Shown one piece after another: positions 5,842-29,532 of a stretch of 60,379 nt of DNA. The notes beneath the pieces are model-generated. The model was not told the DNA's origin. It searched no databases and saw only the letters and a list, made by a program, of their open reading frames with translations. The DNA lies in the NCBI GenBank assembly GCA_008501735.1, contig QQUF01000021.1, positions 1-60,379 of the forward strand. The letters are read 5' to 3'. How positions within the stretch are numbered: the stretch's first letter is position 1; each line of letters starts with the position of its first letter. The position numbers and the translations under genes are program-made. Source of the stretch: Calditrichota bacterium. GTDB taxonomy: Bacteria > CLD3.

Positions 5842-7674
5842 TTATTCAACTGTTACACTTTTTGCAAGATTTCTTGGTTGATCAACGTTACAACCTCGCA
5901 TAACAGCAATGTGGTAAGAAAGAAGTTGCAAAGGAATTATCGAAAGCAAAGGAGTCAAGAAACGCAAAGTGTCAGGAATGTAAATTACGTGGTCAGCTTT
6001 GCCCTTTATTGTTTCGTCTCCTTCAGTTGCAATCGCAATTACTTTTCCGTCTCTTGCTTTTACTTCTTCGATATTGCTAATTATTTTCTCGTACATTCCG
6101 TCACGAGTTGCAACAACAACAACTGGCATATTTTTGTCAATCAGAGCAATTGGTCCATGTTTCATTTCTGCAGCAGGATAACCTTCTGCGTGAATGTAAG
6201 AAATCTCCTTGAGTTTGAGAGCTCCTTCAAGTGCAACAGGAAAATTATAACCTCTTCCAAGGTAAAGGAAATTTGAAGCATCTTTGTAATGCTCTGCTAT
6301 TTTGATAATTTCGTTTTCAGTAGTTTCTAAAATCCTTCCGACTTTGTCTGGGATTCTTGAAAGTGCTTTCGCTAAATCTGAACCTTGAATCGAAGACATT
6401 GACTTCATTCTTGCAATCATTATTGTCATCAAACAAAGAACCGTTACTTGCGAAGTGAAAGCCTTTGTCGAAGCAACACCGATTTCAGGTCCTGCATGAA
6501 CGTAAACTCCTGCATCTGTTTCACGAGCAATTGTACTTCCGACAACGTTACAAATTCCGAAGACCGTTGCACCTTTTGTTTTTGCTTCACGAATTGCAGC
6601 AAGTGTGTCAGCAGTTTCACCACTTTGGCTAATTGCAATTACAACATCGTCTTGTTGAATCACAGGTTCTCTGTAACGGAATTCGGAAGCGTACTCAACT
6701 TCAACTGGAATTCTTGTGTATTTTTCCAACATATATTCGCCGAGCAAAGCTGCGTGCCACGAAGTTCCACAAGCAACAAAAATTATTCTTTTGGCATTTC
6801 TAAATTTATCCAAATGGTCTTGAAAACCACCTAATCTCACATTCCCTTCGTCAATCATCAATCTTCCACGCATTGCATCTTTGATTGTTTGTGTTTGCTC
6901 AAAAATCTCTTTTTTCATAAAATGGTCGAAACCACCTTTTTCGATTGCTTCAAGAGTCATATCAAGTTCAAGAACGTCAGGAGTTATTCTTTCAAAATCA
7001 ATATTTAATATGTTAATCGAGTCTTTGGTAAGAATAGCAATTTCATCTTCACCGAGATAAATTACATTTTTCGTGTGAGCAATAATTGCTGAAGGATCAG
7101 AAGCGACAAAATTTCCATCTTCACCGACGCCAACAATAATTGGACTTCCACGACGTGCAACGACAATTTTTTCAGGTTCATTTTCTGCCATTACAGCAAT
7201 TCCGTAAGTGCCACGAATTTCTTTGAGAGATTTTCTTACAGCCTTTTCTAGATTACCTTCATAATTATTCTCAATTAACGAAACCAGAACTTCCGTATCT
7301 GTATCTGTTCTAAAAACAAAACCTTTACCCAAAAGGAACTCACGAATTGCAGCGTAATTTTCAATGATTCCATTGTGAACCAAAACAAATTTTCCGTTTG
7401 AAGAATTATGAGGGTGAGCGTTCAAAGTTGAGGGAACTCCGTGAGTCGCCCATCTTGTATGTCCAATTCCAACAACGTGTTTTTCCAAACCTTTATCTAA
7501 AAGTTTCTCTAATTCTACAATTTTGCCTTTGGCTTTTCTAATTAGAATTTCATTATTTTCATTAAAAAGAGCAACTCCTGACGAATCATAACCTCTGTAT
7601 TCGAGTCGCTTTAAACCATTAATTATCATTGACAGACAAGGTTTTGTTCCAATGTATCCAACTATTCCACACAT
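5842..7674 (-). CDS. glmS: Glutamine--fructose-6-phosphate aminotransferase (isomerising)
   Basis: A 610-aa, full-length GlmS. It converts fructose-6-phosphate and glutamine to glucosamine-6-phosphate, the first step to UDP-GlcNAc for peptidoglycan and LPS. The N-terminal glutaminase domain begins MCGIVGYIG with nucleophile C2 and has YRGYDSSG and HTRWATHG. Two SIS sugar-isomerase domains follow (about 285-420 and 455-595, with ACGTSWHA and SQSGETADT). It ends in LAKSVTVE, the usual catalytic C-tail. It lies 111 bases after the GlmU-like gene on the same strand, so the two probably share expression. I see no glmS ribozyme in the short upstream gap. Confidence 0.98.
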   Translation of the reverse strand: MCGIVGYIGTKPCLSMIINGLKRLEYRGYDSSGVALFNENNEILIRKAKGKIVELEKLLDKGLEKHVVGIGHTRWATHGVPSTLNAHPHNSSNGKFVLVHNGIIENYAAIREFLLGKGFVFRTDTDTEVLVSLIENNYEGNLEKAVRKSLKEIRGTYGIAVMAENEPEKIVVARRGSPIIVGVGEDGNFVASDPSAIIAHTKNVIYLGEDEIAILTKDSINILNIDFERITPDVLELDMTLEAIEKGGFDHFMKKEIFEQTQTIKDAMRGRLMIDEGNVRLGGFQDHLDKFRNAKRIIFVACGTSWHAALLGEYMLEKYTRIPVEVEYASEFRYREPVIQQDDVVIAISQSGETADTLAAIREAKTKGATVFGICNVVGSTIARETDAGVYVHAGPEIGVASTKAFTSQVTVLCLMTIMIARMKSMSSIQGSDLAKALSRIPDKVGRILETTENEIIKIAEHYKDASNFLYLGRGYNFPVALEGALKLKEISYIHAEGYPAAEMKHGPIALIDKNMPVVVVATRDGMYEKIISNIEEVKARDGKVIAIATEGDETIKGKADHVIYIPDTLRFLTPLLSIIPLQLLSYHIAVMRGCNVDQPRNLAKSVTVE

Positions 7675-16687: not shown

Positions 16688-17746
16688 ATGTTAGAGCTTG
16701 CCAAACAAGCAAAAAATTTCGTAAAAAATGCTGTTCACGACAGACCTGTCAACTCAACGACTGAAATCCGCTTGACTTATCTTTGCACTCAAAGATGCAG
16801 ACAATGTGTAATTCCATTCAAAGGAACTGACCCAAAGTGGTTGACTTTTGAACAATTCAAGTTCATTGGCGACAGGCTTCGTGATTACGGCTCTTACATT
16901 GGATTTATTTCTGGTGGCGAAGTAACGATGGTTCCTGATTTAGACAAAATTTTATTAGAAGCGAGAAAAATTTTCCCTGTAGCTCTAACTTTAGTTACAG
17001 GACTTTACAACAAGCCTGAGATTATTCGCCCAATCGCAGAACTCGCTCTTGCTAACGACATTAACATTCAAACTTCTCTTGACGGTTTCGACGAAATTGG
17101 CGACGATTTGAGAGGCTCAAAAGATTTTTTCAAAGTGGTTTATGGAAATATGAAAATGATTGCCGATATGAAGCCCGAAAGTTCAAAGTCTTTGCTTTAC
17201 ACAAACATCGTAATGAGCCAACTCAATTTAGATCAAGTTCCCGAACTAATTAAAAGAACTAACGATGCAGGTTGGAAAGCAACAATCGGAATGTACCACG
17301 ACTTGACTGCTTCAACTCGTGCAAATGACGATATGTTTCTTGAGCCTTCCGAAAAATTAGACAACTTGATTAAGTATTTGAGAGAAGGAAAAAAAGTCCT
17401 AAACCTCGATTCTTACCTTGCAGGAATTCCCGAATACGTTAGAACCCACAAAACAGATATTTGTGCTTACAGACAATCGAAAGTGCTCTCTTCAAGACTT
17501 TTAGTGATGGAAAACGGAGACGTTCATCTTTGTATCGGAAATCCAATAGGAAATCTTTTCCAAAGTAGTTTGGAAGAAATCTTTGAAGCTGAGACTTACC
17601 GTCAAAGACTAAAGGAATACGAATCCTGCGAAGGTTGTTGGACAACTTGTTACACACAACGCTACTTACTTTCTCACCCAAGAAATTTCCAAGAAGTAAA
17701 AAATAATTTCTTCAAAGTAACCAAACTAAAACCCGAAACTGCTTAA
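16688..17746 (+). CDS. Radical SAM enzyme with SPASM-type C-terminal cysteines
   Basis: A 352-aa protein. The CxxxCxxC cluster is C33-C37-C40 in YLCTQRCRQC; the SAM-binding GGE motif is ISGGEVT (74-80). C259, C282, C314, C317 and C321 form a SPASM-like auxiliary Fe-S region (CEGCWTTC). Such enzymes modify peptides, proteins or small molecules by radical chemistry. There is no obvious precursor peptide next to it, and the substrate is unknown. It is co-directional with the 84-aa gene upstream, and the methyltransferase GTG directly follows its stop codon. Family is certain, reaction is not. Confidence 0.9.
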   Translation: MLELAKQAKNFVKNAVHDRPVNSTTEIRLTYLCTQRCRQCVIPFKGTDPKWLTFEQFKFIGDRLRDYGSYIGFISGGEVTMVPDLDKILLEARKIFPVALTLVTGLYNKPEIIRPIAELALANDINIQTSLDGFDEIGDDLRGSKDFFKVVYGNMKMIADMKPESSKSLLYTNIVMSQLNLDQVPELIKRTNDAGWKATIGMYHDLTASTRANDDMFLEPSEKLDNLIKYLREGKKVLNLDSYLAGIPEYVRTHKTDICAYRQSKVLSSRLLVMENGDVHLCIGNPIGNLFQSSLEEIFEAETYRQRLKEYESCEGCWTTCYTQRYLLSHPRNFQEVKNNFFKVTKLKPETA

Positions 17747-18415
17747 GTGAAAATCAAACGAGTCCGAACCAACGATGGAACAGACACAATTTTCAACGAA
17801 AAATTTGGCGAAACTTACCACTCTTACACAGGTGCTTACGAAGAAGCATTGAGAAAATTCACTCTTCCAACTCAAATTCAAGACTTTGCAGAAACACAAA
17901 ATACCATAAAAATTTTAGACGTTTGTTTTGGACTTGGTTACAACTCTTCTGTTTTTGCGGAAATCGTTACCCAAATCAATCCCAAAATTAAAATTAAGAT
18001 TACTGGTCTTGAAAATGACTCTTGGATTTTGGAGCAAATTTCTCAAACTGAGTTTCCAACTGAAAATTGGCAACTCTTTCAAACAATGCAAAATTTTGAA
18101 ATTCACTCTAAAAATTTAGATTTAAAAATCTTCATTGCAGATGCACGAAAGACTTTAACAAACCTTAGTGAAAAATTTGACTTTGTTCTTTTTGACCCAT
18201 TTTCGCCAAAAAGTTGCCCTGAGCTTTGGGAAGAAAACCTTCTTGAAAAAATTACCAAAGTAAGCAAAAAAGGAACAAAACTTACAACCTACTCGTGCAA
18301 CAAAAAGTTCAGAAAATCACTTGAAAATTTAGGTTGGAAAACCTCTGACGTTAAAGGAGTTGGAAGAAAAAGCCCTTCAACTTTGGCAGAGTTTTCACCT
18401 CAAAAATCGGAGTAA
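17747..18415 (+). CDS. MnmD-like tRNA (5-methylaminomethyl-2-thiouridine) methyltransferase
   Basis: A 222-aa Rossmann-fold SAM methyltransferase with a GTG start directly after the previous stop. The N-terminus VRTNDGTDTIFNEKFGETYHSYTGAYEEA is the DUF752/MnmC N-domain signature; ILDVCFGLGYNS is the SAM-binding motif and FVLFDPFSPKSCPELW the catalytic-domain motif. It would methylate nm5s2U34 to mnm5s2U34 in tRNA. It is the stand-alone form (the MnmC oxidase domain is absent), as in Aquifex. Its place in a radical SAM cassette is unusual. Confidence 0.88.
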   Translation: MKIKRVRTNDGTDTIFNEKFGETYHSYTGAYEEALRKFTLPTQIQDFAETQNTIKILDVCFGLGYNSSVFAEIVTQINPKIKIKITGLENDSWILEQISQTEFPTENWQLFQTMQNFEIHSKNLDLKIFIADARKTLTNLSEKFDFVLFDPFSPKSCPELWEENLLEKITKVSKKGTKLTTYSCNKKFRKSLENLGWKTSDVKGVGRKSPSTLAEFSPQKSE

Positions 18416-27272: not shown

Positions 27273-27358
27273 TAATCTTTCTAAGAAATTTGGTGAGTAA
27301 AATTTGGAGGGTAAGTTAACAGAAATTAATTTTTAGGGCAAGAATTGTACAAAATAAA

Positions 27359-27385
27359 AGGTGAAAAAGAGAGCCTTTTTCACCT
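27359..27385 (-). terminator. Intrinsic terminator after the Cys-Cys peptide gene
   Basis: AGGTGAAAAAG (27359-27369) pairs perfectly with CTTTTTCACCT (27375-27385), 5-nt loop. The minus-strand tail is TTTATTTTG. Three further small hairpins lie between it and the peptide stop codon (27401-27462). Confidence 0.85.
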
Positions 27386-27400
27386 GATAATTTTTTGAGT

Positions 27401-27462
27401 TCAAAGTCAAAAAGAAAACTTTGAGTTAGTTTCTTGAAACTAAGTAAAGAGTAATTTTACTC
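27401..27462 (-). other. Three consecutive small hairpins in the 3' untranslated region
   Basis: TCAAAGT/ACTTTGA (27401-27424), TTAGTTT/AAACTAA (27426-27443) and GAGTA/TACTC (27449-27462) are each perfect short stems, back to back, between the peptide stop and the terminator. A role in message stability or processing is only a guess. Confidence 0.5.
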
Positions 27463-27468
27463 AATTTC

Positions 27469-27582
27469 TTAACAACAACCTTCTCCAGGAGGTGGAGGTT
27501 CAGGTGGTAATCCTGTACTTTGTTGTGCTTCGATTGAAAGAAGTTGTGTTTCAAGCACTAATGGTTTTTCATAAATTTTCAT
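27469..27582 (-). CDS. 37-aa proline-rich peptide ending in Cys-Cys, RiPP-precursor-like
   Basis: A short gene absent from normal ORF length cut-offs. The N-terminus MKIYEKPLVLETQLLSIEA looks like a leader: the Y-EKP-x-V opening is common in ribosomal natural-product precursors. The C-terminus is GLPPEPPPPGEGCC, a proline-rich core ending in two cysteines. A strong SD (AAGGTGA, 6 bases before ATG) overlaps the region just after the upstream stop. It follows the 120-aa gene by 10 bases and is followed by a perfect terminator. No modifying enzyme is adjacent; the nearest radical SAM enzyme is 10 kb away. Likely expressed, function unknown. Confidence 0.75.
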   Translation of the reverse strand: MKIYEKPLVLETQLLSIEAQQSTGLPPEPPPPGEGCC

Positions 27583-27592
27583 TTTATTCACC

Positions 27593-27955
27593 TTAATTAA
27601 TATTGTTTTCTAAAATTTGTAAATCGGTAAGATTACCGTACCAAAAACCACTTTTGTGGCTTAGGTCAAGATTCAAGTCAAAAGCGAGTTCGAATGTTTT
27701 GGTTAAATCTTCTTTAACTAGCTTTAATTTACTTAGAATCGCTTTCGGCAAAGGAGTTAGTAAAGTTATCGAACTTTTTTTGCCGTTTAGCAAAATCATT
27801 AAGTTTCCTTTTGAAGAATTTTTAACTTTTAAGTCTTTCGGGTCTAACTTAACTCGGAAACTCGGAATGATTTTCAAAGTCGCCAAATAATTAATCCAAT
27901 CTACAAGAGATTGAGATAAATCAAAGCGTTCAAGTTTTAGTTCAAAAGGTTTCAC
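27593..27955 (-). CDS. 120-aa hypothetical protein, partner of the Cys-Cys peptide
   Basis: An unrecognised 120-aa protein without signal peptide or TM. Strand/helix alternation (GNLMILLNGKKSSITLLTPLPKAILSKLKLVKEDL) suggests a small alpha/beta domain. It ends 10 bases before the Cys-Cys peptide start, so the two are almost certainly co-transcribed. Candidate roles are leader binding, immunity or chaperone, but there is no motif to decide. Upstream on the same strand, 114 bases away, is the RecJ-like gene. Confidence 0.6.
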   Translation of the reverse strand: MKPFELKLERFDLSQSLVDWINYLATLKIIPSFRVKLDPKDLKVKNSSKGNLMILLNGKKSSITLLTPLPKAILSKLKLVKEDLTKTFELAFDLNLDLSHKSGFWYGNLTDLQILENNIN

Positions 27956-28069: not shown

Positions 28070-29227
28070 TTAGAGTTGTTGTAAAATTTCAAAAATTTCT
28101 TTTCCATTTAAGCCTCTTAACCTAAACCAGCACTTAGACTTAGTTAATCGCCTGTTCTTAAAATAAACTTCAAAGTTGTTGAAGAAATTTCTTTTGAATG
28201 AGTCTAAGCCAAAGATTGTTCCGATTTTCTCATTCCTAAGCTTAGTTGAAATTAAAATTGAGTTTTTGCCAGTCTTATTTGCTAAGGTTCTTGCAAAGAT
28301 TCTCAAAAAACCTAATTCGAAATGACCAACCAAAACACAGAAATCGGTTTCATCATTGCCATAAAATTCAAAATTGCCGTTCTGCAATTTCTCCTCAAAT
28401 AACTTTAAAAGACTTTTTCTTTGCAAATATTTTTGTATTAGAATCTTCAAACAATTTTCAAGTTGCTTAGTTTCTTGTCCCTCAGTTAAAACCTTAAAGA
28501 CTAACTCAGAACGCCCAAATCTTAAAGCATTGACTAAAATTTTCATCAAAAATTTTTGCTGTTCTTCAAAGCACTTTGGCGTTTTTTCTTCAACTTCAAA
28601 AATTTCAAAGAGATTTTCTATCCGTAAGCAAAGCTCTTTAAGTTGAATTTCTAAATTTTCTTTTCTTAGGTTAGAGAATACTTCAAAATTACTTCCGACT
28701 AAAGCTGTAAACCCATTTTGGAAAGCCAAAAGTAAAGGTAATTCGTTTGGTATTCCGAGGTTCAGTTTTTGCACAAGTGTCCAAACTAAAGTAACTGGGT
28801 TCTCTGAAAAAATTTCTTCATTTTGTGGAAAGTGAATGGAATTTGGAATTTCAGGTTTTTGCGAGAAACCACAAATTAAAACGAAATCAACATTTTTAAG
28901 TTTCGAGGAATTAAGTAAAATTTTGAATTGATTTCCGAAACCTTCGTTTTCTCGAGTTGCAAAGTTTAAAGAAGGTGAAACTCCGTTTTGCTTTAAAATT
29001 TTGTAAAGCAAAACGGCAGAGCAAACAGCTTCAAGAGTGAAATCAACGTGAAGTAAAACTCGTTTTGATTTCAAGGCTAATTGGAAATTCTTTTCAAAAA
29101 GATTTGAGTAGTGAGTTGGAAGTGGAAATTCTAAAATATTTTTGGATTCGGCTTTTTCACCAAAAATTAAATCTTCTAAAATTTGGGGCATTTCCGAACT
29201 TGGAAGGCTTTCAAGTCCTTTTCTCAT
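28070..29227 (-). CDS. Degenerate RecJ/DHH-family protein, probably catalytically dead
   Basis: A 385-aa protein that follows the RecJ DHH-DHHA1 layout but has lost its catalytic residues. LLHVDFTLEAVCSAVLLYKIL (58-78) stands where RecJ has its DYDVDG motif; only D62 remains. ATRENEGFGNQ resembles the next strand, and LICGF (117-121) replaces the metal-binding DCG. There is no DHH triad. FGRSELVFKVLTEG matches the RecJ linker region, and FELGFLRIFARTLANKTGKNSILIS the DHHA1 domain. Function could be structural, as in Cdc45. Assigned by pattern only, so moderate confidence. Confidence 0.6.
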   Translation of the reverse strand: MRKGLESLPSSEMPQILEDLIFGEKAESKNILEFPLPTHYSNLFEKNFQLALKSKRVLLHVDFTLEAVCSAVLLYKILKQNGVSPSLNFATRENEGFGNQFKILLNSSKLKNVDFVLICGFSQKPEIPNSIHFPQNEEIFSENPVTLVWTLVQKLNLGIPNELPLLLAFQNGFTALVGSNFEVFSNLRKENLEIQLKELCLRIENLFEIFEVEEKTPKCFEEQQKFLMKILVNALRFGRSELVFKVLTEGQETKQLENCLKILIQKYLQRKSLLKLFEEKLQNGNFEFYGNDETDFCVLVGHFELGFLRIFARTLANKTGKNSILISTKLRNEKIGTIFGLDSFKRNFFNNFEVYFKNRRLTKSKCWFRLRGLNGKEIFEILQQL

Positions 29228-29295: not shown

Positions 29296-29532
29296 TTACA
29301 ATTTTGAATGAACTCCATCGCAGAAAGGTTGGTTTCCACTGTGTTTACAACCACACCAAGCAACTTTTTTGTCTTCTTCAATTTGAGCAAGTAAAGGAGA
29401 AATTCCCGAACCTTTATGACTTCCGTCGCAAAAAGGTTGATTTCCTGAATGTCCACAAGCACACCAAGCATAGTTTCCTTTTACTGTGTCAAGAACGTAA
29501 GGTTTTTTCTGTATAATTTTAGGTTCTGCCAT
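29296..29532 (-). CDS. Tandem CDGSH iron-sulfur domain protein
   Basis: A 78-aa protein with two CDGSH motifs. Site 1 ligands are C24, C26, C35, H39 (CACGHSGNQPFCDGSH); site 2 ligands are C60, C62, C71, H75 (CGCKHSGNQPFCDGVH). Each binds a labile 2Fe-2S cluster by 3Cys-1His. Bacterial members are cytosolic and thought to act in electron or cluster transfer. It is monocistronic by its terminator. Confidence 0.95.
   Translation of the reverse strand: MAEPKIIQKKPYVLDTVKGNYAWCACGHSGNQPFCDGSHKGSGISPLLAQIEEDKKVAWCGCKHSGNQPFCDGVHSKL

Follow-up and report, generated by a model that had tools for sequence, protein, structure and literature searches.

A conserved 37-residue peptide gene in a Calditrichota genome as a possible RiPP-type precursor

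Introduction

Mining for RiPPs mostly begins at the modifying enzymes and then seeks precursors beside them. The stretch of DNA analysed here (the window, 60,379 nucleotides of the Calditrichota genome G000) contains, at 27582-27469 of the minus strand, a frame of 37 residues, MKIYEKPLVLETQLLSIEAQQSTGLPPEPPPPGEGCC (ORF translation), of which the opening had been likened to RiPP precursors in a reading of the sequence only. Two questions arise, namely, whether this short frame is a gene and, if so, whether its product could be a precursor that is matured by proteins encoded elsewhere in the genome. No paper could be tied to the peptide or to its leader, which says little, given that such sequences often appear only in figures or supplements.

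A conserved peptide gene

The gene runs from an ATG at 27582-27580 to a stop codon at 27471-27469, and stops interrupt the plus-strand frame of the same interval. The sequence-only reading thus had the coordinates exactly right and had taken for a gene what proves to be one, but it left the minus strand unstated. Its strong Shine-Dalgarno sequence is present (AAGGTGA, 27594-27588), as is the gap of 10 bases to the upstream gene, a 120-codon ORF that ends at 27593. A GTG in frame at 27591 is an alternative start that would yield 40 amino acids; the ATG is favoured because it fits the conservation with the homologue described below. The 'perfect' terminator is a T-tailed hairpin of 12 pairs, but it begins 83 bases beyond the stop codon of the peptide gene rather than at it. 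Three hairpins, the terminator counted in, lie 3' of the gene in positions 27350-27470, and the RNA from the stop codon through the terminator folds far more stably than its shuffles (200 of 200; z -5.84). The features of the locus are collected in Table 1.

Table 1. Features of the peptide gene and its operon in the window.
Feature	Position	Strand	Basis
37-residue peptide gene, stop codon included	27469..27582	-	ORF; L020 homologue 71% identical; purifying selection
Putative leader, residues 1-23, MKIYEKPLVLETQLLSIEAQQST	27514..27582	-	MKxYxKPxI match to leaders from other groups, good for the G001 copy, weak for the window copy; boundary inferred
Putative core, residues 24-37, GLPPEPPPPGEGCC	27472..27513	-	GLPPEPPPP and CC same in L020, where N replaces GEG; boundary inferred
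Shine-Dalgarno-like AAGGTGA	27588..27594	-	Read from the sequence; L020 has GAGGTG in the equivalent position
Intrinsic terminator-like hairpin 3' of the peptide gene	27359..27385	-	L020 likewise has one after its copy (its 7146-7169)
120-residue protein of unknown family, directly upstream	27593..27955	-	Counterpart fused to DHH-like protein in L020; no Pfam match over cut-off, no NCBIfam match
385-residue DHH-like protein, weak RecJ match near the N-terminus	28070..29227	-	TIGR00644, E 7.7e-5, 21.2 bits vs cut-off 396.9; no DHH string by inspection

None of the models in Pfam, NCBIfam and PHROGs matches the peptide, and the best hit in a sequence search of the PDB has an E of 0.24. A homologue, MKPYQKPEILEVRTLEIEAQQSGGLPPEPPPPNCC, is encoded at the same end of the same operon in a second genus (genome G001, contig JADZEA010000187.1, locus L020), with 71% identical residues. 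G001 is the sole other genome of the family that was compared, and the data set comprises only two sequences of the peptide. The stretch GLPPEPPPP is identical in both copies and only the residues directly ahead of the terminal Cys-Cys differ (GEG or N). The expectation of a conserved C-terminus behind a variable linker was accordingly borne out for the C-terminus but not for the linker.

Among the 35 aligned codons, 20 differ, with 10 synonymous and 10 nonsynonymous differences, and the nucleotide changes between the two genomes are distributed over codon positions 1, 2 and 3 as 12, 8 and 14. The NG86 method yields dN 0.30, dS 1.14 and a dN/dS of ~0.27, a rough figure for so short a gene. When the same 34 changes were placed at random, the observed residue identity (at least 25 of 35) was reached in none of 20,000 simulations, and a stop appeared in 16,387; the two gap codons of the 37 were excluded from both calculations. 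The absence of an in-frame homologue and near-neutral substitution had been named in advance as grounds for giving the peptide up. What was found is a homologue with the frame kept and substitution that is not neutral, and a chance ORF or non-coding conservation is rejected on these two grounds. The shortness of the frame and the lack of a match to any family model speak for such an explanation; in addition to the simulations, the best-aligning antisense frame (21 of 34), which has stops in both sequences, speaks against it, and its probability is negligible. By the evidence of its sequence, the frame is a genuine, conserved peptide gene without a named family, and the pattern of substitutions indicates that it is kept by purifying selection in a second genus.

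The distribution of the peptide is narrow. A protein search of 60 genomes gave matches at E ≤10 in 14, with those in G000 and G001 examined; none was detected in the other seven genomes of the class (same threshold), and protein searches gave no second copy in either G000 or G001. A contig search returned one relative, L020, among 105 stretches with the pattern, whereas 45 such stretches from viral contigs included no relative and plasmids gave no match. At the DNA level, the opening pattern MK..YxKP, which is not bound to a frame, occurs at 10 sites in G000, no more frequently than the reversed-pattern control (9), and at 70 sites in the nine genomes of the class (control, 45), a comparison that weighs against the precursor reading proposed below. 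Thirty of the 70 sites were read as loci, together with three further places in G002 (one a repeat), and the remainder as matched strings. Besides the two peptides, 12 in-frame occurrences were seen, of which six are frames of ≤32 residues and five lie inside longer frames; the 70 residues read in G004 and G008 form the tail of a 123-codon frame. The twelfth, L033 of G001, is an ORF of 74 residues that starts with MKFFRYRKPSLKT and has another core, the sole other short free-standing YxKP frame in the loci read.

Operon neighbours

The window and L020 share the gene order purine nucleoside phosphorylase, lipoprotein, DHH-like protein, 120-residue region, peptide (names assigned partly by reading the sequences). 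The DHH-like and 120-residue parts are fused in L020 and split in the window. A gene for a CDGSH iron-sulfur protein lies within the window operon (29296-29532) and is missing from the same place in L020. The DHH-like protein is fast evolving and possibly a degenerate phosphoesterase; structure prediction was poor both for the fused neighbour of L020 (mean pLDDT 42.8) and for the 120-residue protein (58.1).

The DHH-like protein is present in two of the nine genomes of the class, the same two that encode the peptide, with no match at E ≤0.001 in the other seven. This co-occurrence, the adjacency of the peptide and the upstream gene in both genomes, and the fusion of the upstream protein in one genome but not in the other are compatible with the peptide being a small unmodified partner or regulator that binds the DHH-like or 120-residue protein, for example, through its proline-rich stretch. 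However, the family is represented here by two genomes, so that any family-specific gene would co-occur. Furthermore, the identity between the two genomes is 72% for the phosphorylase, 47% for the lipoprotein, 38% for the DHH-like protein and 31% for the 120-residue region, and therefore the peptide, at 71%, equals the enzyme in conservation and far exceeds the adjacent proteins, its supposed partners. A partner of this kind would also leave unexplained why the leader of the G001 copy recurs in peptides from other groups (see below), and such a role appears unlikely.

The peptide gene might instead be regulatory, with the polyproline stretch stalling the ribosome and thereby controlling a downstream gene; stretches of the PPEPPPP type do stall ribosomes. 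Yet in both genomes the peptide gene is followed by a terminator-like hairpin and then by different genes, a same-strand glycosyltransferase in the window versus an unrelated opposite-strand ORF in L020, which makes an attenuator unlikely. In addition, Rfam detects no cis-regulator above its gathering score, and a T-box match on the opposite strand reaches 16.5 bits versus the gathering score of 93. Regulation by stalling is therefore barely credible.

A leader shared with unnamed peptides of other groups

A profile built from the two peptides matches 90 of 386 genomes at E ≤0.5, but it covers the whole peptide in G000 and G001 alone. Fourteen loci from this match set were read; 13 look like chance, and the remaining one, in the unrelated genome G111, was followed. 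There, the profile meets the leaders of three tandem short ORFs (E 0.038, 0.056 and 0.4), and a leader profile that already includes these three finds 11 leader matches in the same genome. Eight of the 11 were profiled; left out were those on contigs C90 and C70, from which no ORF was extracted, and the second match on C106, a 17-residue ORF. The eight peptides read MKxYxKPxIxSExxxEKxALxC, followed by cores that contain Tyr and Cys. The G111 matches (L083, L114, L115, L117, L119) are dispersed among contigs, some of which are short, and mostly have no recognised enzyme next to them; only for the C106 peptide is a radical SAM gene close by, separated from it by a gene resembling glycosyltransferases (neighbouring ORFs read by eye).

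With rows from G000, G001 and G111, the wider leader profile matches seven of the 386 genomes at E ≤0.02, namely, these three as well as G112, G156, G272 and G294; G112 was set aside, as its match showed no YxKP ORF. In G294 and G156, which represent two genera of another family, the same order is found: an aminotransferase-like gene, a radical SAM gene and, directly behind it, the leader peptide. The two peptide-adjacent enzymes are 63% identical; among the models that they match best are NirJ2, AhbD, mycofactocin, PqqE and ScmE, in no case over the cut-off. A protein resembling HprK and ScmC is encoded 291 bases behind the G272 peptide on the same strand, and, for the second G294 peptide, another lies ~1 kb away on the opposite strand, beyond one ORF.

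The relationship was also sought in the opposite direction. Among 4262 stop-to-stop frames, a profile of the eight G111 leaders has its top hit in the G001 peptide (E 0.001), with the G000 peptide next (E 0.44), and a profile of 13 leaders from outside the family places the G001 peptide first (E 0.0016) and the G000 peptide third (E 1.8, a weak match) among 6030 frames. With these values, membership of the window peptide in a family defined by the leader KxYxKPxI..E..LE..A is tentative. The G000 match to these leaders involves 9-10 residues and is weak by itself, and therefore the leader link stands on the G001 copy together with the identity between the G000 and G001 peptides. The likeness of the leaders may reflect convergence on a docking motif.

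The peptides from G111, G156, G294 and G272, with the consensus [KR]xYx[KR]PxIxSExxFExxALxC, share with the window peptide the [KR]xYx[KR]P motif near the N-terminus of a short ORF, cysteines in the C-terminal part and, often, the lack of an adjacent enzyme. The leader is common among them and the core is not; the core of the window peptide is unrelated to theirs, and the window peptide has neither the SE pair nor the cysteine after the leader alanine. They are themselves unnamed: eight peptides scanned with Pfam gave one match and 13 scans against NCBIfam gave one, each below the cut-off. A solitary, conserved, precursor-like gene, the leader of which resembles those of unnamed and often solitary peptides, suggests an overlooked class of precursors.

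The Cys-Cys end could also, as the sequence-only reading offered among its alternatives, be that of an unmodified product, in which the pair would bind a metal or form a vicinal disulfide. The pair is kept and the residues ahead of it vary, as this explanation would have it; neither the conserved N-terminal motif nor the invariant GLPPEPPPP would be needed for such a function, and two cysteines alone make a poor metal site. This explanation is distinctly improbable.

Comparison with known systems

According to PMC12710340, YxxP is one of the motifs by which lasso RREs recognise their substrates, whereas the broader W/Y/LxxP/L/I is common to the FusE, McjB, PqqD and StsC groups of RREs. Lasso precursors (leader YxxPxL) resemble the window peptide in the YxxP, in the hydrophobic residue two places on and in a Gly at a plausible core start, and one PqqD-type protein has a lasso chaperone as its best model, at 38 bits versus a cut-off of 70. 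They differ in the spacing and the ring acceptor, which is an Asp or Glu at core position 7-9. With G24 as core position 1, the acid residues of the window peptide fall at positions 5 and 11 and the Tyr at -20, compared with Asp8 and a YxxPxL motif at -17 to -12 in the case described in PMC10368454. The B2-type peptidase PF13471 was found in neither G000 nor G001 (among 14 control genomes, six match, one over the cut-off), and, with the misfit of acceptor and spacing, a lasso precursor is rejected. A YcaO product (thiazole, thioamide) is rejected as well, given that YcaO was found in neither of the two genomes (seven of 14 controls match, five over the cut-off).

The PqqA, mycofactocin and SynChlorMet systems, each with a short peptide, a PqqD-like chaperone and a radical SAM/SPASM enzyme, resemble it in that a handle of the W/YxxP type serves their PqqD-type domain (PMC12710340) and in that the enzymes beside the leader peptides of other groups score best against models of this kind. 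Unlike these systems, the window peptide gene has no cassette around it, and the peptide matches no NCBIfam model up to E 10, although with HMMER filters a weak match to a short model may be lost. For genes located away from the enzyme there is a precedent in the prochlorosins, the precursor genes of which are scattered in this way (PMC10783134); these differ in having a Nif11-type leader, the ProcM enzyme and dozens of copies, compared with one per genome for the window peptide.

Candidate partners in trans

Two of the general features of RiPPs can be assessed directly. The gene is short (37 codons) and its leader is conserved, being shared with G001 and, more weakly, with the peptides from other groups; an adjacent modifying enzyme is found in the operon of neither G000 nor G001. 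That no familiar modifying enzyme lies beside the peptide had been noted before and is true of the surrounding ORFs that were read; the sole SPASM match on the window contig is at 16688-17746, 9.7 kb from the peptide gene. The likeness of the YEKP opening to RiPP precursors holds up in part: YxKP ties the peptide, through its G001 copy, to short peptides some of which adjoin radical SAM/SPASM-type enzymes, but no RiPP enzyme was seen in its own operon.

Proteins that could act in trans are few. In each genome there are two discrete proteins of the PqqD type that match over the Pfam cut-off, with their genes in L067/L070 and L068/L069. SPASM matches number five in G000 and three in G001, with three pairs 79-86% identical between the genomes; the genes of the shared SPASM enzymes are at window 16688-17746, in L059/L060 and in L063/L065. 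Both components of PqqD- and SPASM-dependent RiPPs are thus present in the two genomes, and their pairing with the peptide is putative. From the published role of YxxP as an RRE handle and the occurrence of PqqD-type and SPASM proteins in both genomes, the peptide is taken as a precursor, of a RiPP or a peptide-borne product, matured in trans, the best of the readings considered, though one that could equally prove right or wrong. Residues 1 to ~23 would be the leader, with YxKP docking on a PqqD-type recognition domain (RRE), and residues 24-37 (GLPPEPPPPxxCC) the core, with the two cysteines or the proline/glycine run as the probable sites of modification. The modifying enzyme would be encoded elsewhere in the genome and most likely be of the radical SAM/SPASM type.

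Among the shared SPASM pairs, L063/L065, which joins radical SAM, SPASM and ArsM-like methyltransferase parts, is the best match to the enzymes encoded next to the peptides in G156 and G294 (~25% identity), with a slight lead over L060 for G294 (E 1.5e-15 versus 1.2e-14). This fusion (L065, 355-2949; L063, 205-2718) is 86% identical across two genera, and its G001 copy also matches PqqD, below the threshold. The SPASM protein of the window contig, 82% identical in G001, is followed by an MnmC2-like methyltransferase (16688-18415 together). As for the PqqD-type proteins, one adjoins MurA-like and glycoside-hydrolase-like genes (by reading of the sequences), and the other belongs to an operon with an ATP-grasp protein and a LysA-like decarboxylase.

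The latter operon, PqqD-like - ATP-grasp - LysA-like decarboxylase, is conserved between the two genomes (L068, 8609-11305; L069, 2150-4842), and its decarboxylase carries an N-terminal extension, YYEKP[VI]I.RHTVGLTNKFGRNP, which contains the same YEKP motif and lies outside the LysA match (starting at residue 35). This operon might then act in trans on the YxKP peptide as its genome-borne substrate or carrier, with YEKP as a docking tag for one recognition protein, common to the enzyme and a separate Cys-Cys scaffold peptide; this is very unlikely, but, if true, it would amount to a new kind of RiPP-like pathway.
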